Source: a virus
IMG/VR virus record: IMGVR_UViG_3300046791_000242
Location: 1-44,664 of that record
Length of the DNA: 44,664 nt
Strand: one strand, 5' to 3'
Under the pieces are notes generated by a model. It was not told the DNA's origin, made no database searches, and saw nothing but the letters and a program-made list of their open reading frames with translations. Positions 23,197-44,182 of this stretch are shown here, piece by piece (position 1 is the first letter of the stretch; every line of letters starts with the position of its first letter). The position numbers and the translations under genes are program-made.

Positions 23197-24113
23197 CAGG
23201 CGTACCGCTCGTAGAACCAGAACTTGGACCCGGCCTGCGGGGTGACGGTGGTGAAGACCACGGAGTAGGCGCTCGAGCCCGGGTCCACGGTGGTCCACGT
23301 CGTGTCTCCGCTAGACGTGAGCAGGTCCATGCGGAGGGTTTCGACGCTGTCCTCTTCGAGGGTCATGACCTTGTCCTCGCCCTTGTACCGGATGATGCGG
23401 TTGCCGCTCGAGGCTGGGACGGAGATGGTGAAGACCGTGTCGCCGATGGTGCAGGCGACGGTGCCCGCGGCAGCGCCGACGAGCAGGATGATGTTGACCG
23501 GGCAGATGAAGTTGCCGCGGTTCGAGAGGGTGCCCGAGACGGTGCCGCCCGCACTGAGGCTGTACTCCTGAGGCAGGGCCGCCATGATGGACGGGTCCTT
23601 GCAGATGAGCGTGGCCTGATACGGGATGGCGAGCGCGTCCAGTTCCTCGCCGCCCAGTTGGTCGCGGTCGGTCTGGTGGGAGAGGGCGCGGGGCATGGCG
23701 AGGACGCGGAGGGCAATCTCCCCGTCGAAGTAGTCCTCGACCCGGTTGGTGGGGACGGAGAAGTAGAGGGGCAGGTAGCCGAGGCTCTCGGGGTCCTCGC
23801 GGTAGGCGAGCACGGCGTTGAGGGCGGAGCGCAGGTCGGCCAGCCGGTCGAACAGGAGGGCGCGGGAGAGGTCGTAGAGTGTGCCCGCGATGCGGATGCG
23901 GCGAGCGCCTTGGAAGGGCTGGCCCGCGTCCATGCCGTCCTGCTGGCTGCGCTTCTCCATGTACTGGACGAGGTCCACGTCGGAGAAGTCGAAGGTGTCG
24001 ATGACGGACCCGACGATGCCGGTGCCTGCACCGTCACCCCCGGTGACGTTCTCCTCGATGGCCGAGTCGTTCAGCGTGAACCCTCGGTAGGTCACGTCGC
24101 CAAGTGGGTCCAC
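23196..24113 (-). CDS. Dit-like distal tail protein, 305 aa
   Basis: GTG 24113 with CGGAGGAAC upstream. The N-terminus is 'DVTYRGFTLND', then residues 60-130 'QPFQGARRIRIAGTLYDLSRALLFDRLADLRSAL' in the style of Dit N-terminal belts. The C-terminal half, 'GTVSGTLSNRGNFICPVNIILLVGAAAGTVACTIGDTVFTISVPASSGNRIIRY', fits the Dit galectin-like domain. Such rings join tail tube to baseplate in siphophages. Finding one without a tape-measure or tube gene is odd; it may be the tail ring of a short-tailed phage. It is the first gene after the capsid stem-loop. Confidence 0.6.
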   Translation of the reverse strand: MDPLGDVTYRGFTLNDSAIEENVTGGDGAGTGIVGSVIDTFDFSDVDLVQYMEKRSQQDGMDAGQPFQGARRIRIAGTLYDLSRALLFDRLADLRSALNAVLAYREDPESLGYLPLYFSVPTNRVEDYFDGEIALRVLAMPRALSHQTDRDQLGGEELDALAIPYQATLICKDPSIMAALPQEYSLSAGGTVSGTLSNRGNFICPVNIILLVGAAAGTVACTIGDTVFTISVPASSGNRIIRYKGEDKVMTLEEDSVETLRMDLLTSSGDTTWTTVDPGSSAYSVVFTTVTPQAGSKFWFYERYA

Positions 24114-25807: not shown

Positions 25808-28800
25808 CTACGGCGTTGCGAGAACTTCCCGCAACTGCGCCATGGACTCTTCTAGTGTCGGCCCCAAGTCGGCCGCTTGGACCGGCCCAGTAGCCTGCTG
25901 TGCTCGCTCCTGCGACGCCTGAGCCAGAGACTCCTGCGTCGGCTTGACGAGTTCGGTGATGGCCGAGTTGATGGCCTTGGCCCCGCGGAGGGGGCTCATC
26001 TGTTCTGCCGACTTCTCAGCAGCATTGTACAGGCTGATGTCGGTCTTGACCGGCTTGCCCTGCTTCATCGCCGAGGCTTGGTCGAGGCCCTGCTGCGCGA
26101 TGTTCCGCATCCACGCGGGAGCGGTGGCCGGGATGTCCCACGGCGCGGCGGGCAGGAGGTAGGATAGGGCGAACATGCTTTGGCTGTGGCCCAACTTCTC
26201 GATGAAGGCGTCGAACTCCGGGTCGAACTCGCGCTGCGCGCCCACGGCCTTCTGCACGTCGTGCAGGGCATAGGCCATGGCGGTCGTGTGTACGCCGAAC
26301 GGGGTGGCGCCGACGAAGCGGACCATCTCGGGGAGCATCTTGCCCCACATGTAGGAGGCCGGGTAGAGGCCGAACATGGGGTGGTTGATACTCCGCTCGA
26401 ACATGGTCCGTCCGCGGGCGTAGTATTGCAGGCGGTAGGCGTCGTTGAACTTCTCGGCCGCGGTGTCGGCGACGGCGCGCATGAGGTGCGCCTCCGTGGC
26501 GTTGTACACGGTGCCCGCGCCCTTGCTCAGTTTGCCCATCCGCTCGAGCGTGGCGAGCGCCTCCGCCGCGGAGGGGTCGTCGCTGCCCCGGATGAGGGCT
26601 CCGACTGCGGTGTGCGCCCACTCGCCGAACGCCTGCACGGTGCGCTCGATGTCGGGCGGGGCGGAGGGCGGGGCGTGGAGGTGCGTCTCCTCGACCAGCG
26701 TGCGGAACTTCTCCACGTCGGCCCGCTGGGCGGCAATCTTCGCCAACTCACCGGGCATCTCCACGAGGCTGACGCTGCCGTCCTCGCGGAGGTTGGCAAT
26801 CTTCTTCTCGAAGTAGAGGTTCAGGTCCACCTGCGGGCCGAAGGCGAGGTCGTAGACCTCCCCGCCGAACTCGTCCACGTTGCCGCTAGCGTAGCGGGAG
26901 AGGGTGAGGCTGCTGTGCGGGGCGGACGGGCCGTAGCGCCCGTACATGGCCTTGACGTGGTTGATGACCGCGCGTGCCGCCTGCATCTGGTCAGCCGTCA
27001 TCTCGTCCAAACGAGATGCGACCCGCTCCTCGAGATGCTTGAGGAGGGCGTGGCCCAGTTCGTGCCGGATGGCGCCCTCGGGGGTAGCGGAGACGACCTC
27101 CGGTGCCCCGTCCGTGGCCCACGCCAGTTCGTTCCGACCACGGGCGCTGCCCCACGCGGCCTCGCGGTCCGCGGCGCTTCCAGTGAAGTAGCGCGGCGAG
27201 AGGTGCATTGTGGTCTGGCGGTTGCCCTCGAAGTTGCGGGTGGCCGCCTGCGTGTCGAGCGGGTACCCCTGCGGGTAGTCGGGCCGCGGCTTCGTGTGGA
27301 AGTCGTGGTTGATGTTGACGGTCTTGAGGTTCACGTCGGGGAAGTCTCGGGTGAACGCGTTGAGTTCGTCCACGATGGCGCCCTGATACTCCTCGGGCAG
27401 ACCCTTGAGGAGGTCCTGCCCCAGCAGCGTCGGGCGGCGCTCCACGAGTTCTTGGAACGAGGTGAGCGGCTCGTGCTGGATGCCGGAGATGATGCGCTGG
27501 GCGAGTTGCTCCTCGACCTGCGGGTTCCACGCGGCGGCGATGTCGGCGAGGTTGTACTCGACCCCGGCGTGGCTGGTGATGGTGGCGTCGCCAGCGGCCA
27601 CGGCCCGCTTCACGTCCACCCCGAACTCGCGCAGGAGCGCGACCTTGGCGGACGGGTCGAGGTGGTCGGCGAAGACGCTGCTCATCTGGCGCACGAGGTC
27701 GTCGTGCCGAGCGCCCTCCCCGCCGACGAGGGTGGCGAGGTCGGACTTGGTGCCGACCAACTTGCCGTCCCTGATGATGTCGATGGTGCGGCCGAGGCTG
27801 CCCAGCGTGCCGTTCTCCCCGTCGAGGATGCCGGGGCTGAACACCTGCGAGATGTACTCGAGCGGGCTCATGTCGTCGTGCATCCGGGCGGAGGCGGCGA
27901 CGAAGTCTTGGAGCGCGGCGGACTGCTTCCCGGTGAGGCTGAACTGGCGCTCGGCGGTGTTCCAGAACCCCTCCCACGAGAAGTTCAGGGCGTTCCGAAC
28001 GCGGGTCATGTAGTCGGCGTCGGCGCCGCGCTGGGCGAGCGCCTTGACCACGTCCTCCACGCCCAGCCGCCCCTCGCTGATGGCGGAGCGGAGGTCGGCC
28101 TCGTTGCCGATGCCGGAGAACTTGAGGGCCTCGGCCATGTTGTTCAACCCCAGCGCCTTCATGGCGCCGATGTGCTGCGGGGCTGCCCACTCGGCGCCCA
28201 TGGCGGCCATGTACTCGTCGGGGGTCCAGCGGCGGGCCAGTTCGTTGACCCGCTTCGTCATGAAGTCGTTGCCTTGGAAGTTGTCGGCCAGCATCGAGAT
28301 GGCGAAGTCGTCGTCGGAGACGAGGCCACCCTGCCGGATGCTCATGGCGGACTGCATCTCTTTCCACGTGTCTCGCTTCACGATGCCCGCGGTGCTCTCG
28401 CCCGCGTCCTGCGCGGCCTTGAGCGCGCCCTCGTAGTCGGCGACATCCCCCTCGTCGTACGCCTTCTTCATCTCCCGGCCCAGCCCCTTGCGGAAGGAGC
28501 GCAGCATGGCGACCCGCTTCGTGCCCTGCACATCCATGCTGCCGGAGAGGGCGTTGAGGGCGGCGTTCAGGTTCGTGCCGTGCGTCGTCGCGGTCTTCCC
28601 CAGTTTGCCGGAGACGAGGACCTTGGCGCTCTGCTCGTACATGTCCACGTCGGCCATGCGGATGACGCTCGAGGTGTTCATTCGGTCGAGGACGGCGCGC
28701 GTGGCGAGGTCCGCGGCGTTCATCTCGGAGCCGTAGATGGGGGCGACACCGCGCTGCGCGGAGAGGACCCACGGCTCAATCTTCTCCTGCAACTGGAAGA

Positions 28801-31711
28801 AGGGGTTGAGGTGGAACTTGAGGCGGGGGTACAGGTCCTCGGCCAACTGGCCCAGCCGGTTGTGCCCCTCGATGCGCCCGAGGTACTTCTTGGCGCGCCC
28901 CGTGAACTTCTGCGTCAGGCCCACGAAGCGCAGGTCGCCCTCGTAGGCATCGACCACGGCCGTCATCATCTCCTTGGGGCCAATCTGGCCGGAGAGGCGG
29001 GGCGGGATGGCGTCCTTGACCACGTTGTACATGCTCTCGCTCGAGAGGCCGCGGGCGGTGACGATGGCGGAGTTGGCGTCCACCGCGTCGAGCAGCGTCT
29101 CGGCGACCTTGTTGGCCTCCTTGCGCGTCATCGCGTTGAAGCCGTCCCCGGTGGTGATGAGGTTGTCCACGAGCCGAGCCTTCGCCGCCTCGGCGATGAC
29201 GGTGCCGGTCACGCGCGACTTGTAGGCGCGACCCAGCGCGTCGATGTGGTCCAGCGTCTTGTACACCTTGCCCACGGTGCGCGGGAGGGCCTGACCGATG
29301 ATGTTGTGTGGCAGTTCCCGCATCGGGTTGAAGGTGCCGACTTCGGTGCCGACGTGGCCGGTCCACACGCTGCCGACCGGGGCGAGCCTACCGCCGACCT
29401 TGTTGCTCCGCTCGAGCCCCCACAGGTATTCGTCGTCGGGCATGAACCCGAGGTTGTAACTGCCCTGCATCTCGTCCATGAACCCGGCGAAGTCGTCGCC
29501 CATCCCGGCCAGTTCGTCGCTCTCGACCTGCGTCGGGAGGCTGTTGTATATCCGAGAGACGTTGTTACGGAAGTCCTCGACGGACTTGCCGATGGAGGAG
29601 GGGTCGAGGTCCACGAAGTCGAGCGTGGAGTACAGGCTCAGTTCCTTCTGGACCATGGCGTACTGCTCCTCGAGCCCCGACGCCTCGTCCAGCCGCTTGA
29701 GGATACCGCCCGCACCCTGCTTCGTCAGGGTCCGCTTGTTGATGATGACCAACTTGGACAACTTGTCGCCCAAGGTGCTGATGCCGGTCTTGCGCGCAGC
29801 CGCGACCGTGTCCACAAGGCGCCTTGTGGCGTACCCGTAGGTGGACGCGTGGAGGTACGAGAGCATGTCGGCACCGCCGCTGCCCTTGAGGATGTCGTTG
29901 ACCTCGGCCCGCCACTCCTCCGGCTCGAGGTGCTTGTACATCTTCGAGAGGCGGGTGACGAGGTTCTCGATGGCGTCGGCGTCCCACTCACCCTCGCGGA
30001 TGCGGAAGCGGTTGGCCTCCTCCATGATGCGGTCGCCGTAGGCGGTCGGGGCGCCCTTGTGGATTATCTCCTCGACCACGTCGTCGGGGAGGGTCTTCCG
30101 CAGTTCCTCGTTGAGGCCCGCGGCGTACTGGGCGGCGCGGTGCTCGTCGCCCACGACCCGGCGCATCAGGTTGCCGGAGTAGACGCCGAAGTCCTTGTTG
30201 AACAGTTCGGCCAGTTCAGGGTGGAGGGCCTTGAGGCGCTCGACCACGTGGAGGTGCTCCATCTGGCCCATGCCGTCCACGACCCGCTTGACCGTCTCGT
30301 CGGTCAGGAGGTCCATGTGCTTGACGGCGCCCGGGTTGAGCCCGGTCATGGCGCTCATGGGGTCGAGGATGGTGCGGGCGACCTTGGCCGTCTTCCCCAG
30401 CGCCGTCCCCTGTAGCCGGACGTAGGGGGCGCCAGCGAAGCGGATGATGCCACCCGCGCGCTCCGTCTCCATGGCCTTCCCGTACAGGTTGATGCGGGCG
30501 GACGTGCCCTTGAGTTTCGCCCCCGCGCGGAGCACGCCCTCGAGCCCAGCCTGCGCCGTCTCAATCTGCGCGGCGTCCCCGGTCAGACGGGCAGCGGTCA
30601 GGGCCTTCTCGGCGTCGATGGTGAGTTCGGCCAACTTCGTAGCCTTGACGCCCACAGAGGCGGCGGCGCCTGCGCCGACGCTGGCCCACGTGAGCGGGTC
30701 GTAGGCGGCGGAGGAGGCAGCCTCCCACAGCGGGTCGCGGCTGAAACCGGATGAGTTGGCGGTCAGGTAGTCGAGCGCCTCGTCCTCGCTCCACTCGTGG
30801 TCGCTGACCTTCTGGAAGACGGTCTGCTCGAGCGGGGTCATCGTCTTGCCGATGTCCGCGCCGAACCCGCCGACGGTCCCGAAGGACTCGAGTTTGCCCT
30901 GCCCGACGGCCATAATCTCTTCGACGCGGTTCAGGCCGGAGCGGCCCGCGTTCCCCGCGTCCTCGCCACCCGCGTGCATCCGCTCCACGGGGCGGAGGAG
31001 CAGGCTCATGGAGTCGAGGAGGACGCCGATGGTGTCGGTGACGGAGGGGCCGGGGACGAACATGCCCGAGTACAGGGTCGGGTGCTCGAGCGACTTCTCG
31101 GCCTCGCGCGCTTTCAGCGCCTCGGTGATGATGTGCCCTCGGCGGTCGGCTCCGCCCTCGGCGGCCAGTTCCTCCTGCGCGGTCAAGTAGGCGGGGCTGT
31201 CCTTCGGGAGGGCGTTGAACTTGTCCTCGTTGGCGGCGTTGGTGATGGCGCGGGCGACCTCGCCTCCGGGGGTGGCGGCGGCGAACGCCTTGCCAGCGGT
31301 GTCGGTTTCGGCGAAGTCAAGGACCTTGCCCGCGGCGCCAGCGACAATCTCGCCGCCGACCCCGATGGCGTTCGTGATGCCGCGGCCGACGTGGCCGATG
31401 AGGCCAAGGGGACCGGGCGCGTCGCCCAAGAGGCCGCCGTGCTGCCCGTAGCGGTTCTCCGTGTCGCTGCCGAAGAGGCCCTGCTGCAACCCGACAAAGA
31501 GGTTCTGCGTCTCGCCCGCGGCGGACGTGCCGCTGCTAACGGGGTCGAGCAGGTTGACGTTGTACGTGCCCGGGGAGGCGCCGGAGTCGGGACCCTGCTG
31601 CTGCGTCTTCCCCGTGCTCCGCGGCTTGTTGCCGCCCTTGAGCGCAGCGATGCGCTTGTCGGCGGCGGTCGAGCCGGTGTTCCCGGGGGCGATGGGTCGG
31701 TAGAAACTCAC
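25808..31711 (-). CDS. giant virion (ejection-type) protein with zincin motif, 1967 aa
   Basis: Start GTG 31711 (GTGA overlap with the previous stop); an upstream extension in frame lies inside the previous gene. The protein has Gly-rich segments near residues 70-170 (GLIGHVGRGITNAIGVGGEIVAG) and long helical stretches through the middle. GAIRHELGHALLKHLEE carries HELGH at residues 1550-1554, followed some 60 residues later by NVDEFGGEVYDLAF, a suitable third zinc ligand. Large helical proteins between portal and scaffold are ejection (internal virion) proteins in short-tailed phages. A tape-measure role is the other option. The protease domain could clear a path or be used after injection. 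Confidence 0.7.
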   Translation of the reverse strand: MSFYRPIAPGNTGSTAADKRIAALKGGNKPRSTGKTQQQGPDSGASPGTYNVNLLDPVSSGTSAAGETQNLFVGLQQGLFGSDTENRYGQHGGLLGDAPGPLGLIGHVGRGITNAIGVGGEIVAGAAGKVLDFAETDTAGKAFAAATPGGEVARAITNAANEDKFNALPKDSPAYLTAQEELAAEGGADRRGHIITEALKAREAEKSLEHPTLYSGMFVPGPSVTDTIGVLLDSMSLLLRPVERMHAGGEDAGNAGRSGLNRVEEIMAVGQGKLESFGTVGGFGADIGKTMTPLEQTVFQKVSDHEWSEDEALDYLTANSSGFSRDPLWEAASSAAYDPLTWASVGAGAAASVGVKATKLAELTIDAEKALTAARLTGDAAQIETAQAGLEGVLRAGAKLKGTSARINLYGKAMETERAGGIIRFAGAPYVRLQGTALGKTAKVARTILDPMSAMTGLNPGAVKHMDLLTDETVKRVVDGMGQMEHLHVVERLKALHPELAELFNKDFGVYSGNLMRRVVGDEHRAAQYAAGLNEELRKTLPDDVVEEIIHKGAPTAYGDRIMEEANRFRIREGEWDADAIENLVTRLSKMYKHLEPEEWRAEVNDILKGSGGADMLSYLHASTYGYATRRLVDTVAAARKTGISTLGDKLSKLVIINKRTLTKQGAGGILKRLDEASGLEEQYAMVQKELSLYSTLDFVDLDPSSIGKSVEDFRNNVSRIYNSLPTQVESDELAGMGDDFAGFMDEMQGSYNLGFMPDDEYLWGLERSNKVGGRLAPVGSVWTGHVGTEVGTFNPMRELPHNIIGQALPRTVGKVYKTLDHIDALGRAYKSRVTGTVIAEAAKARLVDNLITTGDGFNAMTRKEANKVAETLLDAVDANSAIVTARGLSSESMYNVVKDAIPPRLSGQIGPKEMMTAVVDAYEGDLRFVGLTQKFTGRAKKYLGRIEGHNRLGQLAEDLYPRLKFHLNPFFQLQEKIEPWVLSAQRGVAPIYGSEMNAADLATRAVLDRMNTSSVIRMADVDMYEQSAKVLVSGKLGKTATTHGTNLNAALNALSGSMDVQGTKRVAMLRSFRKGLGREMKKAYDEGDVADYEGALKAAQDAGESTAGIVKRDTWKEMQSAMSIRQGGLVSDDDFAISMLADNFQGNDFMTKRVNELARRWTPDEYMAAMGAEWAAPQHIGAMKALGLNNMAEALKFSGIGNEADLRSAISEGRLGVEDVVKALAQRGADADYMTRVRNALNFSWEGFWNTAERQFSLTGKQSAALQDFVAASARMHDDMSPLEYISQVFSPGILDGENGTLGSLGRTIDIIRDGKLVGTKSDLATLVGGEGARHDDLVRQMSSVFADHLDPSAKVALLREFGVDVKRAVAAGDATITSHAGVEYNLADIAAAWNPQVEEQLAQRIISGIQHEPLTSFQELVERRPTLLGQDLLKGLPEEYQGAIVDELNAFTRDFPDVNLKTVNINHDFHTKPRPDYPQGYPLDTQAATRNFEGNRQTTMHLSPRYFTGSAADREAAWGSARGRNELAWATDGAPEVVSATPEGAIRHELGHALLKHLEERVASRLDEMTADQMQAARAVINHVKAMYGRYGPSAPHSSLTLSRYASGNVDEFGGEVYDLAFGPQVDLNLYFEKKIANLREDGSVSLVEMPGELAKIAAQRADVEKFRTLVEETHLHAPPSAPPDIERTVQAFGEWAHTAVGALIRGSDDPSAAEALATLERMGKLSKGAGTVYNATEAHLMRAVADTAAEKFNDAYRLQYYARGRTMFERSINHPMFGLYPASYMWGKMLPEMVRFVGATPFGVHTTAMAYALHDVQKAVGAQREFDPEFDAFIEKLGHSQSMFALSYLLPAAPWDIPATAPAWMRNIAQQGLDQASAMKQGKPVKTDISLYNAAEKSAEQMSPLRGAKAINSAITELVKPTQESLAQASQERAQQATGPVQAADLGPTLEESMAQLREVLATP

Positions 31712-34260
31712 AGTCGTTCCCGCGTCGTCGTGGACGGCGGCTTGTAGGCCGTCACCTTCGAGCCAGCGGGGGCCGAGCCGCTGACCGGCTTCGCGTATAC
31801 GTTGCCGGAGACGGCCCCACCGGCCACGGCGGGCGGCGTCCACGTGACGCCGGGGATGGTGATGGGCTTTCCGAGCCTAATCTCGGGCGCCTTCTCTTCG
31901 GCGGCGCGCGTGTTCAGGTTCGGGGTCGAGAGACGGCCGGGGTTGTTCGGGTCGAAGCCGAGGTTGATGGGGGCCATGCGGGACTCGGTCGGGATGACGT
32001 TGAGCCACTTCGGGTCGCGGTCGTTCTGCGGCGTCCACCCGGCCGCGGCGATGTCCACCATGTGGACCTGCGAGGACATGGGCTTGAGGGTGTCCGGGGC
32101 CTTGCTCCACGTCGAGTCCTTCTTGTCAAGGAAGGAGGCGTAGCCGGTCTGGCCGACGTGGAGGGCGTCGCCTGTCTCGCCCATCAGGCGAGTCTCGAGC
32201 GCCACGTCACCCTGCTTGGTGACCGCGCCCGTCTCCGCGTCGCGCTCCGTGCCGGTCAACTTGTCGATGTCGTACTGTAACGACAACTGGAAGCCGGGGA
32301 TGTCCTTGATGATGTCGAGGTCGCGGCGCCCCTCCTCGCTCGTCATGTGCATGGCGACCGTGAGGTTGGCGAACATGATGTGCGGGTCGTAGCCGCCGAT
32401 GCCGTCGATGCTGGGCTCGGACGCGGCAAGGGCTGCGGCGGGGTCAATCTGGATGCTCGGGGGAACCTCGTTGCCGTAGTCGTCCACTCCGGGCTGGCCG
32501 TACTGGACGTAGGGGGCGGGGTTGCCGAACGGGGGGAGCGTGCCGGAGAGGTCCATGGTCCACTCGCCGTCGCTGCCTTGTAGCAGTTTCGCCTTGTCCG
32601 GGTCGCCCGGGAAGGTGCTGGCGAACATCTCCTTGCCGTTGACGTTGACGCCGTAGGCGACGTGCTGGGTGCCACCGTACGACAGCGCGTAGACGCGCAT
32701 GACGTTGGCGGAGCCCTTGATGTCCACGGCGTTGCCGTTCGCGTCGAGGGCGCCAGCGGTGACGAGTTGCGCGGGGACGAGGACGGGGACCTGCGCCCCA
32801 CCGGCCGTCTTCGCGTACGAGGTGCGGGCGCCAGCCGGAGCGGCGGCCATGATGTCGGCGATGGGGGCCGCGCCGAGCGCCGTGCCTCCGGCCTTCGGGG
32901 TGAACGCGCCGTCGGGACCGCGGACGCCGGGGGTCAGCATCCAGCCGCTCTCCGGGTCGTTGAGGAGGTCGGCCTCCTCCTGCGCGAACTCGACGCGCTG
33001 GGCGTTGATGGCGTTCTCTTTGGTCGGCGCGCCGTCCCGGTCCTCGAACTGAGTGAAGGACTCCGTCAGCGTGAGGGTGGCCTCCTCCTTGTTCGCCTCG
33101 CCGATGATGGCGGACCGGCGGGCGTCGTCGGTGGCGATGCGCGGGTCGTTGCCCAGCCGGATGAGTTGGTCGGTCTTGCGCTTGTCGGCGTCGAGGATGT
33201 CCTGCGCGGTGACGCCGGGGGCGGAGATGGACTTGTTGTACGACTCGATGATGTCGTTGTAGTCCTCTTGCACCGGGATGGCGTCCACGATGCGGCCGGT
33301 CTGGACAAGGCCCTCCATCTGGCCCTTGAAGCGGTTGGCGTCCGTCACGTGGCCGGTGGCCTCGGCGTGCTCAATCATCTGCTGCAAGGTCTTCTTGGAC
33401 TTCTTGATGGCGGTCTGGATGGTGTCGAGGCCGATGGTCCCGTCGAAGGAGTTGCCGAGGTGCTTGGCGAAGTAGTCGCCGAGGCTCTGCGCCGTCACCG
33501 GCTTGCCGCTGTCGTCGTGGTACAGGACGATGTCGCTGGCTACGGCGCCGTTGGCGGAGTCGCGCTCCGGGCGGGTGACGAGGTTGGCGACCATCCGCAG
33601 CATCTCGTCGGCGTCCTCGGACCCGAGGTTGAAGAGGGCTCCGGAGGCGGTACCGTCCCGCCCCATGCCGGTCGGCGCCGGGATGGCGTACTGACCGTCG
33701 GGTGAAACGAAGCCCTTGGTGGCGAACGCCTCGAGCAGGTTGATGGCCGCGTCACCGGCCTTCGTGCCCTTGCTCAGGTCGTTCATGTACGCGTTGTAGC
33801 GGCGCTCCTTGGCGGCCTGCGTGTCGGCTTGATTCCGGACCTGCACGTTTCGCATGTACTGGCCCGCGTCGCGCTGCAAGATGCGGTAGAGTTCGCTGTC
33901 CTTCGGGACCTTCTTGGCCCAGTGGAGGTAGAACGCCGTCATCTGCGCGTCGCTCTTGTGCTTCGTCGCGTAACTGGCGGTCATCTTCGACTCGGCGATG
34001 CTGTACTCGAGTTGCGTGACCGCGTTCTTGTAGGTGTCGTACAGCGGGTCGTCCGGGCTGATGTCGGTCAGCCGGTCCTTCCAGTGCTTGATGACGATGC
34101 TGTCCGTGGCCTTGTGCCCCTCGAACATGCCGCCCTTCTGCCACGCCTCCATGAGGTTCGAGTCACGGGTGCGCTCCTGCTCCCGCGCAATGGAGAGCAG
34201 GGTCGCTTGCAGGTTCGGGATGGCGCGCGGCTGGCGCCCGAAGTAGCCGGTGCGAGCCAT
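31708..34260 (-). CDS. ejection-type internal virion protein, 850 aa
   Basis: ATG 34260 shares a base with the portal stop (TAATG). Residues 1-400 are helical and charged (QATLLSIAREQERTRDSNLMEAWQKGG, DPLYDTYKNAVTQLEYSIAESKM). The centre is mixed, and the last 120 residues are Pro/Gly/Thr-rich. There is no transmembrane segment or known enzyme motif. Position directly after the portal and before an even larger protein matches the internal-protein pair of podophages, whose products leave the head with the DNA. Sequence alone does not name the family. Confidence 0.6.
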   Translation of the reverse strand: MARTGYFGRQPRAIPNLQATLLSIAREQERTRDSNLMEAWQKGGMFEGHKATDSIVIKHWKDRLTDISPDDPLYDTYKNAVTQLEYSIAESKMTASYATKHKSDAQMTAFYLHWAKKVPKDSELYRILQRDAGQYMRNVQVRNQADTQAAKERRYNAYMNDLSKGTKAGDAAINLLEAFATKGFVSPDGQYAIPAPTGMGRDGTASGALFNLGSEDADEMLRMVANLVTRPERDSANGAVASDIVLYHDDSGKPVTAQSLGDYFAKHLGNSFDGTIGLDTIQTAIKKSKKTLQQMIEHAEATGHVTDANRFKGQMEGLVQTGRIVDAIPVQEDYNDIIESYNKSISAPGVTAQDILDADKRKTDQLIRLGNDPRIATDDARRSAIIGEANKEEATLTLTESFTQFEDRDGAPTKENAINAQRVEFAQEEADLLNDPESGWMLTPGVRGPDGAFTPKAGGTALGAAPIADIMAAAPAGARTSYAKTAGGAQVPVLVPAQLVTAGALDANGNAVDIKGSANVMRVYALSYGGTQHVAYGVNVNGKEMFASTFPGDPDKAKLLQGSDGEWTMDLSGTLPPFGNPAPYVQYGQPGVDDYGNEVPPSIQIDPAAALAASEPSIDGIGGYDPHIMFANLTVAMHMTSEEGRRDLDIIKDIPGFQLSLQYDIDKLTGTERDAETGAVTKQGDVALETRLMGETGDALHVGQTGYASFLDKKDSTWSKAPDTLKPMSSQVHMVDIAAAGWTPQNDRDPKWLNVIPTESRMAPINLGFDPNNPGRLSTPNLNTRAAEEKAPEIRLGKPITIPGVTWTPPAVAGGAVSGNVYAKPVSGSAPAGSKVTAYKPPSTTTRERL

Positions 34261-38226: not shown

Positions 38227-38634
38227 TCAGTCGGTCGTTACGCCCCCTTCTCGGACGTAGATGATGGCTCGGCGTACCGCATCGGGCCATCGCTCGACCA
38301 TTGGGACGACTTGGCGGTTGCAGAACCGGCATAGGAGTCCCCGGACGGCCCCGGTGACATGACTATGGTCCACCGCAGGGCTAGTCCCGATGCGCCTGCC
38401 GACCAACTTCCCCGTAAACTGGCATACCTGATGCCACTGGGGGGTTCGGAAGGGGCGTCGGCAGATGGCGCAGCGGTGCCCCTGCTCGTCAAGCATCTCA
38501 TCGCGCACCTCCACGGTGATGTTGTACCCGTTCCGCGCCGCCTGCGTTCGCAGGGCAGTCGCCACAGCCCGGGGAGTCGGGGGCTTCCGGACCTTCTTGG
38601 GCGCGCGAAGCGCGCCTCGCTGTTCGTCGGTCAT
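38227..38634 (-). CDS. HNH / endonuclease VII-type nuclease, 135 aa
   Basis: ATG 38634. Residues 53-120 hold HRCAICRRPF...AVDHSHVTGAVRGLLCRFCNRQV: two CxxC zinc knuckles around a DH...H catalytic segment, the pattern of recombination endonuclease VII/HNH nucleases. The N-terminus is very basic (APKKVRKPPTPRAVATALRTQ). The start region contains a perfect GGCGCGC-GAA-GCGCGCC hairpin at 38600-38616. HNH nucleases next to terminase often support packaging; endonuclease VII relatives resolve branched DNA. Both roles fit this position between replication and packaging genes. Confidence 0.8.
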   Translation of the reverse strand: MTDEQRGALRAPKKVRKPPTPRAVATALRTQAARNGYNITVEVRDEMLDEQGHRCAICRRPFRTPQWHQVCQFTGKLVGRRIGTSPAVDHSHVTGAVRGLLCRFCNRQVVPMVERWPDAVRRAIIYVREGGVTTD

Positions 38635-38650: not shown

Positions 38651-40303
38651 TCATGCTTCCCAGCCCTCGCCGCTCGTGAAGTGGGCCATCCCAGCGAGTT
38701 CGAGTTTCTTGAGGAGGTCGTTGACGGCCTGCCTCGACTTGCCCACTCCGGCCGCGATGACGCTCACCATGGCGGGGCCGTTCTTCTCGAGCCATTCGAG
38801 CACCTCCGACTGCGCTGGCGCTGTCGCGGAGGTGGCCTCGACCGGGGTAGCGACCCGCCACCCGTAGCCCTCGAAGGCGACGGGGATGGAGAGGTCCTCG
38901 ATGTCCCGGCCAGTGACATAGACGGTGCCGGTGGAGTCCCCGCGGTGGCGGTTGATGAAGATGATGAAGTCGGCTGCGCCGGTAACACCGCGTGTACCCG
39001 TAATGCGGGTCATCCAGTCTTCGGAGCCCGCCTTCCGGTCGTGGGTGACGAAAAGGACCACAGAGCCCGGGTGTTTCTGCGTCACGCGGTGGATACCGGT
39101 CAACAAACTGTAGTCCTCGTCGTAGGCGTTGAGCCCGGACTTCCCCGTCGGCCGCACCTTCCCGAGCACGTCCACGATGACGACACCCTTCGGGTGGTCG
39201 ATGAGGTACGCGTTGACCTCCTCTTCCAGCGGCCCGCCCAACTTGGGCGCCGTCCACCGGAGTTCAAATCCCTTGCCCAGCGGGCGGCCTTGGAGGATGT
39301 CCTTGATGCGCGACTGGCTCCGGCGCCTGCCGTCCTCGAGCGCGTAGTAGCGCACGGGGCGGGGCTCGCCCTTCTGGCCGAGGAGGTCGCTGCCCGCGGT
39401 CAGGGAGACGGCGGCTTGGTACATGAGCAGGGACTTGCCCGCCTTCGGCGGCGCTCCGATGACGCCCAGCCCCTCCGGGATGAGGCCCACGAAGGCGAAC
39501 GCAAGCGGCGGGAGGTCCAGTTTCAACAGGTCAGCGGCGTCCATGCCCCCCAACCCCTCATCGGCGGGACCGCTCTCACCGATGAGGAGGGGGGCGGAGG
39601 GGGTAAGCACCTCGAAGTTGGCGGCATCCCGCGCGAGTGCCTTGAAGTCGGCCTCGCTCCACGGCCACGCCGGGTCGGCGGAGACGATGCGGCCGTTGGC
39701 GTACATCCCCTTGAGGATGGAGAGGAGCATAGCCTCGTCAAACTGGCCCTTGGTCGAGTTGACGAAGGACCCGAGCCAACTGATGAGTTCGGCGTGGGTA
39801 GAGAGGGGGGCACCCGGGTCCCTTGGCGCTTGTGGGACGTAGGCCGACTCGTAGACCCACGAGGGTGCGGGCGTCCACGTTCGCGTGTCAAAGGCCGCGG
39901 CCTCGTAGGCAATGACGTAGCCCTTGCCACCGGCTCGCGTGTCCATCTTGATGCCGCCCCGCCCCACCACCTGCGGAACGTCGCCCGCAGTGGGGTCGGT
40001 AACGTGGAAACGCTGGTAGTGCCCCTCCGTCCGCGTCTTTTGCCACGCGGTTTCGGGGAACTCGAGGCCGTCGGCCTCCGCGCGCTTGACCGCGTCGATG
40101 TCGTCAATGTCGATGGCGACGGTACCGGGCGGCATGGGGACGCCAATCTCGGCGGCGGGAAACTGCTTCCACCACGCGGTGATGACACCGGGCTCGCGGC
40201 TCGTCCCCGTCTTCCAACTGGTGATGAGCGGGCGCTTGTGCTTCGCGGGGAAGATGTCGAAGCCATAGGCTGCGACTTGCAGCGCCTCTTCGAGGCTACT
40301 CAT
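38651..40303 (-). CDS. primase-polymerase / RecA-fold helicase fusion, 550 aa
   Basis: ATG 40303 with AGGAGGACC upstream. The N-terminal 180 residues match bifunctional prim-pol (archaeo-eukaryotic primase): PAKHKRPLITSWKTGT and TVAIDIDD (D65, D67) with later KMDTRAGGKGYVIA. A RecA-fold ATPase follows: Walker A GAPPKAGKS (283-291), Walker B GVVIVDVLG (374-378), then VVLFVTHDRK. Residues 498-545 form a winged-helix-like end (VLEWLEKNGPAMVSVIAAGVGKSRQAVNDLLKKLELAG). It could prime, extend and unwind at the origin. No separate DNA polymerase gene is seen in the window, so this protein or the host must supply synthesis. Confidence 0.8.
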   Translation of the reverse strand: MSSLEEALQVAAYGFDIFPAKHKRPLITSWKTGTSREPGVITAWWKQFPAAEIGVPMPPGTVAIDIDDIDAVKRAEADGLEFPETAWQKTRTEGHYQRFHVTDPTAGDVPQVVGRGGIKMDTRAGGKGYVIAYEAAAFDTRTWTPAPSWVYESAYVPQAPRDPGAPLSTHAELISWLGSFVNSTKGQFDEAMLLSILKGMYANGRIVSADPAWPWSEADFKALARDAANFEVLTPSAPLLIGESGPADEGLGGMDAADLLKLDLPPLAFAFVGLIPEGLGVIGAPPKAGKSLLMYQAAVSLTAGSDLLGQKGEPRPVRYYALEDGRRRSQSRIKDILQGRPLGKGFELRWTAPKLGGPLEEEVNAYLIDHPKGVVIVDVLGKVRPTGKSGLNAYDEDYSLLTGIHRVTQKHPGSVVLFVTHDRKAGSEDWMTRITGTRGVTGAADFIIFINRHRGDSTGTVYVTGRDIEDLSIPVAFEGYGWRVATPVEATSATAPAQSEVLEWLEKNGPAMVSVIAAGVGKSRQAVNDLLKKLELAGMAHFTSGEGWEA

Positions 40304-40413: not shown

Positions 40414-40439
40414 GGCTGAGTGGACCGCTCTACTCAGCC
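40414..40439 (-). terminator. stem-loop over the stop codon of the 164-aa gene
   Basis: GGCTGAGT (40414-40421) pairs with ACTCAGCC (40432-40439), an 8-bp perfect stem with a 10-nt loop, on the minus-strand message at the 3' end of the first replication gene. There is no U-run after it, so complete termination is unlikely. Attenuation or mRNA stability are more probable. Confidence 0.35.
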
Positions 40440-40924
40440 GTAGCGACTGCTCGAGCCCGCTGGCCCTTGCGGGGGCCGAGGACCGAGGAGGCCGTCGGGT
40501 ACATGTTGTCGTTGAGGCCAACGTCAACCTGAACCGGGCGACCAAGGAGTTCGTTCAGGCTCGGGGCAGGCTTGCCCTCGCTCCACGCGTCGAACTCGTC
40601 TGCGGTCATGAGCGCCTTCATGGCGCGGACCTGCTTGCTGGGGTTCTTGGCCTTGGCGAAGAACTGTAGTCCGGTGAGTTGGTCCACCTCGAGGGGGAAC
40701 CCGGACTCCTCGTCGTACAGCACCGACCCGTCGTCGGCCGTGAGCGCGTAGACCCACTTGAAGCGGTTGATGTCGTTTCCGCTCTCGTCCTGCGTGACGA
40801 AGCCGTCACCGTACTGGCCGCCCGTCACCCACTTGGTTTCGACGCGGGAGAGGATGGCGTCATTGAGCCCGAGGTCAATCTTCGGGATTTTCGGCTGGCT
40901 AGCCGCGAACATGTCGTAGGTCAC
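40430..40924 (-). CDS. replication-associated protein, possibly ssDNA-binding, 164 aa
   Basis: GTG 40924 with TAGGAGGG upstream; the upstream-open frame lacks such a site. First gene of the leftward transcript leaving the control region, directly before the prim-pol/helicase. The text includes 'KWVTGGQYGDGFVTQDESGNDINRFKWVYALTADDGSVLYDEESGFPLE', beta-rich and acidic, then a helical segment and 'LNELLGRPVQVDVGLNDNMYPTASSVLGPRK'. The form (OB-like strands, Gly/Asp-rich) and place suggest ssDNA binding or loading, but I do not recognise a clear family. A hairpin covers its stop codon (40414-40439). Confidence 0.5.
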   Translation of the reverse strand: MTYDMFAASQPKIPKIDLGLNDAILSRVETKWVTGGQYGDGFVTQDESGNDINRFKWVYALTADDGSVLYDEESGFPLEVDQLTGLQFFAKAKNPSKQVRAMKALMTADEFDAWSEGKPAPSLNELLGRPVQVDVGLNDNMYPTASSVLGPRKGQRARAVATAE

Positions 40925-41026
40925 TTGGACCCTCCTAACTGCTGTCGAGGGGGGCTCGACTTGGATACCCAGTGTACCCCGCCGGGGGTCGCCGGGATGA
41001 ACTAAGTGCGCCAGTCGGAGCACTAG

Positions 41027-41156
41027 AAAGCGCCGTTTCCACGCTCAACTGACGTATAGGTACTTTCGGGGCTTTCACTACTTTCAAAAGACTTGTTCAG
41101 GTGAAAGTACCGAAAGCACCTAGATACCCGGTGAGCGTGGAAAACGGGCGTTTTCG
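41027..41156. repeat. large outward-facing inverted repeat with 9-nt iterons
   Basis: Two arms of about 55 nt face outward from a centre near 41089. The inner part is 41058-41078 against 41101-41121 (18 of 21 pairs); the outer part TTTCCACGCTCA (41036-41047) pairs with TGAGCGTGGAAA (41132-41143) perfectly. Inside, CTTTC recurs at 41063, 41072 and 41081, and its complement GAAAG at 41103 and 41112, all spaced 9 nt. Symmetric copies of the same unit running toward both transcripts suggest paired operators or an initiator-binding site. Confidence 0.65.
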
Positions 41157-41511
41157 GGCGTTTCAGGGGTCACGGAGGGCGTAACGGTGCCTCGAAGCAC
41201 CTGTGATGGGTCCCACGAGGGTCGCGTTACGGAAAAGGGGTCCCATGTGACGGGTAAACGGGGTCGTTTCAGAGAGGCTGGCATGTCCCCCGCCGCCGAA
41301 ACACGCACACATTGACGGGGGTACCCCGGTGCCACCTGCGCGGTTCGCACTTCCGGCGCGCGCCCGCCCGCCCGGGCTCGCAGTGCTGCTCGTGCGTGGC
41401 TGGGCGCTGGCACTGGAAGGAATGTTGCTCTCAGCAATACGCTTTTGCTCTCGGCACCTAGGGGACACACCACGTAGTGGTGACAGTCAGACACTCCGGA
41501 ATAGCACGGAT

Positions 41512-41536
41512 GTTCGGTTCCACGCTCAAACCGAAC
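41512..41536. repeat. hairpin presenting CCACGCTCA in its loop
   Basis: GTTCGGTT (41512-41519) and AACCGAAC (41529-41536) form a perfect 8-bp stem. The 9-nt loop CCACGCTCA is the same sequence found in the outer arms of the large inverted repeat (direct at 41039-41047, inverted at 41132-41140). The repeated element may be a protein-binding site, shown here in a cruciform or RNA loop. Confidence 0.5.
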
Positions 41537-41607
41537 GGACGTTCAGGGTCGCGCGCGTCCCGGCGCGCAGGGAACAGGGAAGGCGCGGGGGCGCGAAGAC
41601 CGCGCAC

Positions 41608-41703
41608 GTGCATGAGTCGTTTCACGACTGGTACGCGCGCACAGGAGAGGTTGAGCCGGTCGAACCGAACCGGCCGAAGCGAAAGGAGCCACGAAGTGGC
41701 TAG
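41608..41703 (+). CDS. possible leader peptide, 31 aa
   Basis: A short frame from GTG 41608 (HESFHDWYARTGEVEPVE...) to TAG 41703. It has no strong ribosome binding site and overlaps an alternative extension of the next gene. The reason to list it is the ending: Gly-stop in GTGGCTAG, the same 8-nt stop/start junction used at six well-supported gene borders. It could serve as a coupled leader for the 62-aa gene. Low confidence. Confidence 0.25.
   Translation: MHESFHDWYARTGEVEPVEPNRPKRKEPRSG
41687..41701 (+). promoter_or_regulatory. start-codon hairpin AGCCAC-GAA-GTGGCT
   Basis: A 6-bp perfect stem with a GAA loop whose 3' arm begins with the GTG start codon of the 62-aa gene, directly after the GAAAGGAG ribosome site. 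The gene at 41918 has the same block (hairpin 41910-41922), with C-G replaced by A-T in the stem. The hairpin should modulate initiation at both genes. Confidence 0.6.
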
Positions 41704-41884
41704 CAGCAAGTTCTACGTCATCGGCCGGAATACAGCCATCGCCTACGGTCCCTTCGGGACTCGCAAGGCAGCCAAGGACGCGGTTCGTCGGATGCTCGGC
41801 AGCGAGAAGAAGTATTACGGAACCCTTCGGGTTCGAGATGCTGCCGCTTTCGAGGCCACCGTCCCCACCGTTCGACCGTTCTAG
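41696..41884 (+). CDS. hypothetical basic protein, 62 aa
   Basis: GTG 41696 follows GAAAGGAG at good spacing, and the same initiation block is repeated at the next gene, which favours this start over ATG 41612. The protein is basic and mixed alpha/beta (KFYVIGRNTAIAYGPFGTRKAAKDAVRRMLGSEKKYYGTLRVR); a small RNA- or DNA-binding role is conceivable. Hairpins lie at its start (41687-41701), inside (41748-41760, 41820-41834) and at its stop (41881-41899). Function unknown. Confidence 0.6.
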   Translation: MASSKFYVIGRNTAIAYGPFGTRKAAKDAVRRMLGSEKKYYGTLRVRDAAAFEATVPTVRPF

Positions 41885-41917
41885 TTACGAAGTAACTAGG
41901 AAGAAAGGAGACACGAA

Positions 41918-43348
41918 GTGTCAGCGTTCGTCTTTCCAACCATCGAAGATGGTTGCGATTGCCGACCTTGTTCCCGCCGCCGCGGAGTTCGCGCCGCCAT
42001 CTCCGATGGCTACGTCGAGTCCTACTCCTCAACCCCTTTGGGGGGTTGGCGGCAACCAGCCGACGACCTTCGGTCAGTTCCCACCTTCGGTGTGGAACTG
42101 GAAACCAGCCTCGCCGAACTGCCTTACGGAGTAAGGCGTTCGACGGAACGCCGCTTCACAGCCTTTCAGGCTGTGGACCGTCGAGAAGCAGCCAGCCTCG
42201 CTGCTCCTACGGAGCATTGGCTGCCAAAGAGTGACTGTTCAGTCACTGGACCCGAGTTCGCTAGTCAGCCAGCCAGCCTCGATTGGTGGAACACCAATCG
42301 GCCGGTCATCGGGCAGTTCCTAAAGGAACTGCGGCACGGTGGCTGCGGCACCGAAGGTGCCGGACTCCACGTCAACATCGGAACCCGCGCCTCCTTCGGA
42401 GGCCCTGAGCACCTAGCGCGGTTCGCCACGCTGTGCACGAGCAACCCGCGGTTCTTCACCCGGATGGCTGGCCGGACGCACGACAACGTTCAGCACTGGG
42501 CCAAGTTCGATGTCATCGCCAATCCTACGGATTGGGGTCAGGAAGTTTGGGCCGGAGAAGCATGGTCGTCCCAAAGGGACCGGTACAGCGTCGTCAACGG
42601 TCAGGCTAGGGGCCGAGTCGAGTTTCGACTCCCCGCCGGAACGCTGGACGTAGTCCAGTTCTATGCGATGTTGGAATGGGTCGCCTCCATGGTCGAGTTC
42701 ACCCGTGAGAACCGCACGCCCAACGTCAGCAACTACGTTGCTTGGCTCCGGGGCAACGGTACCTACGGTACCGCCGAAGCCCGGATGAGGGACCTGTTCC
42801 CCAGCCGGTTCGAGTCTCCCGCACACACGGTCGCGGTTTCCACGAGCAACGTACCTAGCGCACGAGCGAGCACGAGCAACGCACCTAGCGCGACGCAGGC
42901 CGCGTATGAAGGCGGGTTGTGCGAGTCCGTGAGGCTGGAAGGCACAGACTACGTCTGTGAGATGCCAGCCGGTCATTCCGGCTCCCACGGCGCACCTTCG
43001 GTGCGAGTCTACTGGGACAATCTGGACGAAGTCAACGCTGACGGCTCCTACGGAGAGGTCTACGACCTGTGCCTCGATGAAAGCGGCGACGGTTCGTGGG
43101 TCTGCACCCGCGGTACTCGCGGCCACGGTGGCTACCACGAAGCCGTTGGCTTCGACGCCGTTTGGGGCGGTGCCTTCGGCACCCTGCCAATCAGCCACGC
43201 TCAGATGACCGCTTCGCTCCGTCCCGTTAGGGACGGCCACTGCTCCGACATCAGTTGCACCGGAGAGCACCGAACCGACATTATCCACACTCCCGGCACT
43301 CTCCCGCTCCGGTGCTTCACGTGCGCTACGCACCCTGTGCGCTCGTGA
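41918..43348 (+). CDS. amidoligase-like enzyme with Cys/His-rich C-terminus, 476 aa
   Basis: GTG 41918 after AAAGGAG and hairpin 41910-41922. Residues 55-265 fit the amidoligase_2 (COOH-NH2 ligase) family: TFGVELETS (57-63), WLPKSDCSVTGPEFASQP with K, D, S and E at about 104-114, GAGLHVNIG (148-155), then RYSVVNGQARGRVEFRLPAGTLDVVQFYAMLEWV (about 222-254). The family forms amide bonds using ATP, and substrates in phages are unknown. A Ser/Thr/Asn linker with a 30-nt tandem repeat (42841-42900) leads to a C-terminal part with repeated C...GHxGxH segments (YVCEMPAGHSGSHG, WVCTRGTRGHGGYH) and more cysteines. Codon use has more A/T at third positions than elsewhere, in step with the hairpin array. 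Confidence 0.75.
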   Translation: MSAFVFPTIEDGCDCRPCSRRRGVRAAISDGYVESYSSTPLGGWRQPADDLRSVPTFGVELETSLAELPYGVRRSTERRFTAFQAVDRREAASLAAPTEHWLPKSDCSVTGPEFASQPASLDWWNTNRPVIGQFLKELRHGGCGTEGAGLHVNIGTRASFGGPEHLARFATLCTSNPRFFTRMAGRTHDNVQHWAKFDVIANPTDWGQEVWAGEAWSSQRDRYSVVNGQARGRVEFRLPAGTLDVVQFYAMLEWVASMVEFTRENRTPNVSNYVAWLRGNGTYGTAEARMRDLFPSRFESPAHTVAVSTSNVPSARASTSNAPSATQAAYEGGLCESVRLEGTDYVCEMPAGHSGSHGAPSVRVYWDNLDEVNADGSYGEVYDLCLDESGDGSWVCTRGTRGHGGYHEAVGFDAVWGGAFGTLPISHAQMTASLRPVRDGHCSDISCTGEHRTDIIHTPGTLPLRCFTCATHPVRS

Positions 43349-43362
43349 TGCGTACGGTCTGT

Positions 43363-43420
43363 GTCCGCGCTCAGGGTCCTTGCGTGGACTCGAGCGTAAG
43401 ACTAATGCGCGATAGGATGA
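43363..43420 (+). promoter_or_regulatory. promoter-like repeat, copy A
   Basis: 58 nt that match copy B (44584-44641) at 47 of 58 positions without gaps. Invariant parts are TTGCGT (43380-43385) and TAATGC (43403-43408) with 17 nt between them, followed by GCGAT.GGATGA. Differences cluster in the spacer, as expected for a promoter. It lies in a 119-nt gap before the gene at 43468. Confidence 0.6.
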
Positions 43421-43467
43421 CCGGCGAAAACCGACCGGCAACCGACCAGCCCAAGGAGGGCAACATC

Positions 43468-43635
43468 ATGGATGCTCGCATCCTCCCTCGCAACGAGGTC
43501 GAGACAGCAGCGTGCCTGCTCATCGAAGCCCTCGTGAGCGAGGCCAACCGACTCCCCGCACAAGGCAGGTGGGCGCGGCGTGGACGCTACGTTGCGTCGA
43601 ACCGGCCCGCCATGCGACGACCGGCGGTCGGCTAA
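43468..43635 (+). CDS. hypothetical protein, 55 aa
   Basis: ATG 43468 with AAGGAGGG at ideal distance; a frame running further upstream crosses the promoter-like repeat. A GGATG-CTCG-CATCC hairpin follows the start codon. The product is an N-terminal helix (PRNEVETAACLLIEALVSEANRL) and a basic tail (RWARRGRYVASNRPAMRRPAVG). First gene of the operon after promoter copy A. Its stop overlaps the next start (TAATG). Function unknown. Confidence 0.55.
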   Translation: MDARILPRNEVETAACLLIEALVSEANRLPAQGRWARRGRYVASNRPAMRRPAVG

Positions 43636-43775
43636 TGGCCGCCTACACCATGACCCTCAAGCGCCTCTGCGCGGCTTGTGGGGTCGAGCACCTCATCCTG
43701 TGGATGAGCGGCGGACTGACCGTCGCCGTCTGCCCTAAGTGCGACGTGGTGGCTTCGCCACCGGAAGGAGAATGA
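43635..43775 (+). CDS. small zinc-ribbon protein, 46 aa
   Basis: ATG 43635 shares a base with the upstream TAA. The sequence LCAACGVEHLILWMSGGLTVAVCPKCDVV has two CxxC pairs about 20 residues apart and beta-like residues between: a compact zinc ribbon. Such micro-proteins can bind DNA, RNA or protein; which is unknown. It ends with a GGTGGC-TTC-GCCACC hairpin (43748-43762) and overlaps the next gene by 4 nt. Confidence 0.6.
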   Translation: MAAYTMTLKRLCAACGVEHLILWMSGGLTVAVCPKCDVVASPPEGE

Positions 43776-44182
43776 CCGTGCCGTGGTTCGACCGCCCCGA
43801 AGGGTTCTACACCAAGTCTTTCGACACGTATGCCGACAAGCGCCCACAGGCACCCGACTGCCTCACGGTGGGGCCGTCGGAGGACGATTACGCTAACTAC
43901 GTTAGCGACCCCAACCCGGAGGCCGAAGCCTACATCGAGTCCGTCGAGGCCACCCGAGCGGCCATGCGGGCCGAGCGGGACGCCTACCCCATAGGGGTAG
44001 AGGTCAAGTGCCTCTACTGCGGCGGCATCATCGAGCATCCCGAATACACACCCGGCCCCGAGCACAACGCACATGGCGTGTGCATCATCGAGGCTGGCCG
44101 ACAGGTTGACGTGGCCTTCCATGAGGAAGACCACCCGTTCGACACCCATCCTGAATGGATGGACGAAGGAGGTTCCGAATGA
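43772..44182 (+). CDS. hypothetical protein, 136 aa
   Basis: ATG 43772 after GGAAGGAG; GTG 43778 is a second option. The protein is acidic, with 'DRPEGFYTKSFDTYADKRPQAPDCL' near the start and a central 'VKCLYCGGIIEHPEY...EHNAHGVC' that has CxxC with nearby His/Cys, a possible zinc site. The end is rich in His/Asp/Glu (FHEEDHPFDTHPEWMDEGG). No family recognised. It contains two strong triloop hairpins (43891-43907, 43984-44000). Confidence 0.55.
   Translation: MTVPWFDRPEGFYTKSFDTYADKRPQAPDCLTVGPSEDDYANYVSDPNPEAEAYIESVEATRAAMRAERDAYPIGVEVKCLYCGGIIEHPEYTPGPEHNAHGVCIIEAGRQVDVAFHEEDHPFDTHPEWMDEGGSE

Follow-up and report, generated by a model that had tools for sequence, protein, structure and literature searches.

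DNA mini-hairpins with a GNA loop, such as d(GCGAAGC), are reported to be extraordinarily stable and form a structural class rather than a genetic system. Phage N4 injects an RNA polymerase whose start sites are DNA hairpins of the C(GRA)G type (PMC4496689). There are three of these promoters in N4, with sequence conservation in both stem and flank. In the mitochondrial genes of Nematomorpha (hairworms), perfect inverted repeats lie within coding DNA and show a binary pattern of identity, from which conversion was inferred by the authors; these repeats are up to 284 bp long and scattered, and no loop specificity was invoked for them (PMC6649704). The ssiA and ssiB single-strand initiation hairpins of RSF1010 are recognised by the PrimPol-type primase RepB'; each strand has a single site of 40 nt, contacted at its flank in a sequence-specific manner (PMC4434180), with a conserved flank and a GTG start site.

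The DNA analysed here, a virus contig of 44,664 nt from IMG/VR (record IMGVR_UViG_3300046791_000242; hereafter the window), carries an array of short hairpins that resembles each of these systems in part. With the N4 promoters it shares the C(GRA)G triloop mini-hairpin with a C-G closing pair and a stem of 5-7 bp, as well as an N4-gp56 family capsid, but it contains dozens of hairpins with unrelated stems, in both orientations and with GTA loops in addition. Like the hairworm palindromes, the repeats are perfect, lie inside functional genes, show binary identity and coding-phase bias and are gained and lost between relatives, whereas the stems are 4-9 bp long, enclose C-GDA-G loops and are crowded, in each phage genome, into a single dense cluster whose location is fixed. 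A likeness to RSF1010 would consist in hairpin DNA on both strands near a putative origin, a PrimPol-class primase gene and iteron-like repeats, but an array of dozens without a shared flank differs from one site per strand, and RSF1010 serves as the functional analogy for the replication role favoured below and not as a family claim. Loop chemistry and closing pair agree with the GNA mini-hairpins, except that GCA, a member of that class, is absent. N4 early promoters and hairworm palindromes are the nearest kin, and neither fits. At the DNA level, no sequence similar to the window was detected in 50,697 phages with the array, positions 1-20 kb and the conserved non-coding element as queries, and no similar cultured phage or plasmid was found.

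Extent and loop rule of the array

Perfect triloop stems of at least 5 bp occur at about 2/kb over 1-41 kb of the window and at 11, 14 and 11/kb at 41-44 kb. For positions 41687-43333, a first-pass annotation had counted about 33 hairpins, about 26 of them with triloops, and a recount gave 31 perfect stems that do not overlap, each with at least 5 bp and a loop of 3-7 nt, 25 being triloops. The array within these limits was thereby confirmed, but it reaches further, to hairpins at 41468, 41615, 43692, 43748, 43891 and 43984; the whole is placed at 41300-44010, densest at 41687-43340, and includes an upstream non-coding part and the next genes. Codon-preserving shuffles, which the same annotation had proposed as a check, were performed by permuting synonymous codons within each gene while keeping protein and codon use (300 shuffles). 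In the amidoligase gene, the main carrier, 22 stems reach 6 bp or more, compared with 2.4 in shuffles (z = 13, shuffle maximum 7), 26 compared with 7.5 reach at least 5 bp, and triloop stems of 6 bp or longer number 17 compared with 1.26 (z = 14.8, maximum 4 in 300); no stem exceeds 9 bp. The excess of the array therefore persists under shuffling and the other window genes are close to chance, 14 of them lying near shuffle expectation, with 40430-41023 and 23196-24113 mildly high. A GC content of 66% raises the random stem rate; however, chance, composition or an assembly artefact is refuted, with a practically negligible probability, by z values of 13-18 in codon shuffles, by the presence of the array in six independent assemblies and by the sharp loop specificity.

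Taking as the strand of a C-GDA-G hairpin the one that bears GDA, the plus-strand hairpins are CACCAC(GTA)GTGGTG (41468-41482), AGCCAC(GAA)GTGGCT (41687-41701), which covers the GTG start of a 62-aa gene, CTAGTTAC(GAA)GTAACTAG (41881-41899), which covers its stop, GACAC(GAA)GTGTC (41910-41922), which covers the GTG start of the amidoligase gene, CAACCATC(GAA)GATGGTTG (41937-41955), GCCTTAC(GGA)GTAAGGC (42121-42137), CGGCACC(GAA)GGTGCCG (42346-42362) and CTGGAC(GTA)GTCCAG (42644-42658). Those on the minus strand are GTCCC(TTC)GGGAC (41748-41760), GAACCC(TTC)GGGTTC (41820-41834), GCCATC(TCC)GATGGC (41996-42010), TGCTCC(TAC)GGAGCA (42202-42216), GCCTCC(TTC)GGAGGC (42389-42403), CCAATCC(TAC)GGATTGG (42519-42535), AGCAAC(TAC)GTTGCT (42728-42742), CGGTACC(TAC)GGTACCG (42757-42773), CACAGAC(TAC)GTCTGTG (42943-42959), CGCACC(TTC)GGTGCG (42991-43005), AGGTC(TAC)GACCT (43056-43068), GGTGCC(TTC)GGCACC (43169-43183), GGTGGC(TTC)GCCACC (43748-43762) and CGCTAAC(TAC)GTTAGCG (43891-43907). 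Other loop classes are represented by a 7-bp stem with a 5-nt loop (42030-42048), by CACAGCCT(TTC)AGGCTGTG (8 bp, T-A closing; 42157-42175), CGATTGGTG(GAA)CACCAATCG (9 bp, G-C closing; 42280-42300) and GCAGTTCC(TAAA)GGAACTGC (8 bp; 42313-42332), and by the 7-bp stems GGCGTTC(GACG)GAACGCC (42135-42152), AGTGACT(GTTC)AGTCACT (42230-42247), GAGTCGA(GTT)TCGACTC (42615-42631, inside the conserved RVEFRL motif), CGAAGCC(GTT)GGCTTCG (43138-43154), CCGTCCC(GTTA)GGGACGG (43219-43236), CTCATCC(TGT)GGATGAG (43692-43708) and CTACCCC(ATA)GGGGTAG (43984-44000).

The loops had been assigned to the C-GNA-G class at first pass, which proved right as a class but too broad, the rule being C-GDA-G or its complement and never GCA. 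Across five arrays, stems of at least 5 bp surround 33/85 CGAAG, 22/45 CGTAG and 12/42 CGGAG seeds or their complements (67/172 for C-GDA-G in total), as against 0/47 CGCAG seeds in the same arrays and about 1% of seeds outside arrays, seeds within one genome not being independent trials. The GAA, GGA and GTA loops, with GTA common, sit on stems of mostly 5-7 bp; GDA lies on the two strands 33 and 40 times relative to array direction, which is no strand bias, and outside CGDAG these 73 hairpins in both orientations contain no sequence information, stems and flanks being otherwise unconstrained. Pair positions 2-6 are fully paired in 51/193 seeds, compared with 0.3% outside arrays, while positions just past the stem end pair at chance (0.27), so the stems are perfect. 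The excess of stems over background begins at 4-5 bp for C-GDA-G and at about 7 bp for other loops, a later onset that is expected of a DNA-hairpin stability threshold; nearest-neighbour parameter sets assign equal energy to every triloop, and no loop bonus is readable from them.

That the array serves as structured early mRNA, affecting stability, RNase protection, translation pacing or co-transcriptional structure, is unlikely. Such a role would agree with hairpins being denser in coding than in intergenic DNA, with an array position in the genes that transcription leaving the control region reaches first, with the coverage of two GTG starts and with an RNA fold z of -4.3, but the DNA fold z of -5.2 is no weaker. 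C-GDA-G and C-THC-G occur 21 and 24 times on the coding strand of five genomes, although as RNA the loops C(GAA)G and C(UUC)G are not alike, and single stem defects comprise four G-T and four A-C, without the excess of wobble pairs that G-U pairing would give. Terminator tails are likewise missing, as 2 intrinsic terminators (a stem followed by a T run) were found versus 2.7 expected. The mRNA protection and translation pacing proposed at first pass are therefore not supported, whereas the broader claim of selection on the nucleic acid fold is supported, as far as action at fold level goes, by the shuffles and by recurrence in relatives. A loop set closed under complement, the lack of strand bias and of wobble, and the trade-off between loop and stem together point to DNA and not mRNA, because selection on RNA would not yield that combination of traits. 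UNCG tetraloops were considered as an RNA alternative and rejected, as the stems sit in triloop register and the tetraloop register is unused. A search against Rfam gave only a sub-threshold match (E 0.056), outside the array.

Coding genes and the cost to their proteins

The hairpins are carried by the 62-aa gene (41696-41884, plus strand) and chiefly by the amidoligase gene (41918-43348, plus strand; 476 aa), which was identified by homology to mycobacteriophage and plasmid proteins, its relatives matching PF12224, and which retains the FGVELE, GLHVN and EFR motifs. In Marvinvirus mycobacteriophages and plasmid pGD21-2 (L040, L041, L042), a glutamine-amidotransferase-type gene follows the amidoligase, and the window phage has no obvious partner of this kind. 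Small C...C..P.GHxGxH-type motifs, possibly zinc-binding, occur in otherwise different array genes (window 42919-43200; L018 4732-5229; G011 45332-45652).

Hairpin density is 5.9/kb in coding and 2.0/kb in intergenic DNA. The claim that 13 of 21 triloops in the amidoligase gene coincide with whole codons was reproduced if the start-codon hairpin is counted, and over five genomes the C-GDA-G loops fall into phases 0, 1 and 2 in 25, 3 and 17 cases, a skew which shows that coding constraint filters the hairpins. It had also been proposed that synonymous choices complete the stems, which is an incomplete account. By synonymous codon choice, a C-GDA-G hairpin with a stem of 6 bp or more could arise at 17 sites of the window amidoligase, a count that includes the realised ones, so that the leftover capacity is ordinary background; the same count is 0 and 2 in array-free orthologues and about 1 per 100 aa in other phage proteins. 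Amino acids were changed as well: where the G014 and G013 proteins agree, the window protein is identical at 27/61 hairpin sites versus 83/125 other sites (p = 0.004), hence the hairpins cost amino acids, and with the protein altered to host them, synonymous tuning alone is insufficient.

Recurrence and turnover in relatives

A first scan of IMG/VR returned 22 relatives of the window terminase, with identities of 60-74%, and a profile scan added more; genomes sharing the terminase at 45-75% identity were taken as relatives of the window genome (G000), and their contigs were read and genes called. One cluster of C-GNA-G/C-TNC-G hairpins per genome was found in G000, G007, G014, G015 and G011, with 20-30 short hairpins in the richest genomes, whose unique stems measure 4-8 bp where C-GDA-G or its complement closes them and at least 7 bp where the loop is weaker, a sparse cluster in G010, and two hairpins in G005 before the contig ends. 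The limits of the arrays in relatives were set after C-GDA-G clusters had been seen, and overall enrichment there is thus partly selected, while the codon-shuffle tests, common location, GCA absence, strand symmetry and stem perfection are free of this choice. In G000, G007, G014 and G011, where gene starts are approximate, the cluster starts 0.5-0.9 kb from the start of the gene resembling p40430 (a predicted ssDNA-binding gene, see below) and fades at 1.1-3.6 kb, away from that gene, with few hairpins on the other side. The host genes are amidoligases in G000 and G014 and unrelated small genes in the other genomes. The G014 amidoligase, 45% identical to that of the window, has 8 C-GNA-G hairpins versus 0.22 in codon shuffles (z = 16.8), whereas the orthologous amidoligases of G012 (partial) and G013 have none. 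Since the array occupies the same place in unrelated genes and is missing from orthologues, it is a property of the place and not of the gene, and can be absent. No C-GDA-G cluster was found in the distant terminase relatives G018-G025 and G029, the more distant PrimPol carriers L154-L160 have no array, amidoligase scans of viral contigs returned no carriers other than the genomes already found, and no gene content was found that accounts for presence or absence.

Hairpin clusters without the C-GDA-G loop (G016 and L069/G029) were left out of this comparison. The one in G016 (contig L116, 19518-19771) lies at equal distance from the terminase and consists of near-identical GGAGCCCC(NNNN)GGGGCTCC stems with TATA, GATA, GGTA or TATC loops. 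About 66 bp are conserved (79%) ahead of unrelated genes in L018 (about 5140-5210) and L104 (12925-12990), and contain AGCTCCGAAGGAGAGC, in which a C-GAA-G hairpin has the Shine-Dalgarno sequence as its 3' arm. The G010 contig (L029/L031) has ends (1-1278 and 49276-50541) that repeat each other at 96.5% identity, the conserved non-coding element included. Two Myxococcales/Anaeromyxobacter MAG contigs (L130 and L131) carry terminase relatives of 72% and 64% identity, which may be a lead to the host or a case of mis-binning.

The array itself persists, but individual stems are not maintained between orthologues: G000 and G014 share 7 overlapping hairpin positions versus 5.8 expected, not above shifted controls. 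This turnover bears on a mutational ratchet, the strongest rival to the replication role favoured below and not much less likely than it, in which the hairpins are by-products of template switching and perfect palindromes build up faster than selection on dispensable genes clears them. In one variant, a 3' end would fold back on a stable C-GDA-G mini-hairpin during replication or repair, copy 4-8 nt and return; in another, the arms of extruded hairpins would be made identical through template switching. Stems that are either perfect or absent and end abruptly at chance complementarity, changes in both arms, the lack of any conserved hairpin position, overwritten amino acids and the filtering of phase by coding constraint would all be expected of such a process. 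The hairworm genes, for which conversion was inferred from the same binary identity, provide a precedent (PMC6649704), and two terminal pairs are enough for Pol theta to extend a stem-loop (PMC11292364). However, the ratchet must be confined to one flank of the control region, 2-3 kb long, and must not act in G012 or G013, the return would start from a one-pair seed without a homology guide, the lower density in unconstrained intergenic DNA is unexpected, and no polarity of change was found between the arms. If the origin of the hairpins is mutational, nature would offer here a single locus at which template switching makes palindromes in concentrated form and can be followed directly.

Control region and candidate roles

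The arrays crowd into 0.5-3 kb on one side of a non-coding control region, with ssDNA-binding-like and PrimPol genes on the other. In the window this region contains a long imperfect inverted repeat (41025-41160; DNA fold z = -8.1), a putative origin or operator, and a conserved non-coding element (41243-41397) that five further genomes of the group share with G000 (G007, G010, G011 and G005, and more weakly G012), and each genome has repeated, iteron-like 9-mers in its control region, for example ACCCTCCAT (five copies) and CCGTAACCG (seven copies). Across from the array lie p40430 (40430-40945, minus strand; start codon approximate), for which an OB-fold/DUF669-like ssDNA-binding protein is predicted at low confidence, and, on the same side, a gene for a PrimPol primase/AAA_25 ATPase (38651-40303, minus strand). 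The window also encodes an exonuclease and has a match to the dATP/dGTP diphosphohydrolase N-terminal domain. The control region is taken as the putative replication origin.

We tentatively favour a role of the array in replication, as DNA hairpins flanking this putative origin. The flank would become single-stranded or negatively supercoiled, upon which the hairpins would extrude and offer many redundant sites, independent of stem sequence and usable on either strand, to the priming or ssDNA-binding machinery of the phage. If hairpin number and stability alone matter, nothing would tie a single hairpin to its position while the genes evolve, and protein residues would be given up so that hairpin number stays high. 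This role is favoured by the codon-shuffle excess in the G000 and G014 amidoligases, the common location in unrelated genes, the loop rule with its strand symmetry, the perfect stems and their length threshold, the amino acid cost, and the repeats, conserved element and replication genes in and beside the control region. Several observations speak against it: no array is present in G012 despite its amidoligase, its copy of the conserved element and its p40430 homologue, which makes the array dispensable; replication proteins differ among array-bearing genomes; a higher density in coding than in intergenic DNA is odd for an origin element; and stability alone does not account for why GCA loops, which belong to the GNA class too, are excluded.

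A somewhat more doubtful reading is that the array represents a novel type of DNA element, in which many C-GDA-G mini-hairpins, independent of stem sequence and functional on either strand, are overprinted on any genes at the side of the origin and read by a loop-specific protein that rejects GCA, selection being strong enough to rewrite the proteins. Over kilobases and in diverged phages, the coding sequence appears to be governed by DNA secondary structure and not by protein or mRNA; a functional array would be a new class of origin-flanking element and imply a hairpin-loop-specific protein. Under a functional as under a mutational reading, conservation of a property, hairpin density, separates from conservation of sites.

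Recognition by a transcription enzyme, as in phage N4, is distinctly improbable. The hairpin class agrees in its 3-nt loop, sheared G-A pair, short stem and extrusion by supercoiling (PMC4496689), and the capsid is of the N4-gp56 family, but dozens of sites in both orientations, without a shared stem or flank and with common GTA loops, are not N4-like, and no RNA polymerase was found. A virion-type protein of 2,011 aa (25808-31843, minus strand), conserved in the group, matched nothing in Pfam or among PDB profiles and gave no confident fold match, its low-confidence predicted fold being too poor to search; it bears a metallopeptidase-like RHELGH motif and, towards the C-terminus, a conserved RSINHPMFGLYPASYMWGK block. 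We consider equally improbable that the array acts as a supercoil sink or has another architectural role, for instance in packaging or in resolving the junctions of cruciforms once extruded. Such a role would suit palindromes that are dense, extrudable and next to divergent transcription, as it would a predicted recombination endonuclease VII, a junction/cruciform resolvase, encoded next to the PrimPol gene (38227-38634, minus strand; PF02945, E 1.9e-16); however, this gene is present in the window genome only, being absent from the 12 relatives tested, and nothing links packaging to the site.

Beyond the amidoligase gene, a direct repeat of 84% identity (GGGTCCTTGCGTGGACYCG...GACTAATGCGCGAT) lies downstream (43346-43420) and again at the contig end (44569-44641), and resembles an operon promoter or operator that has been repeated.
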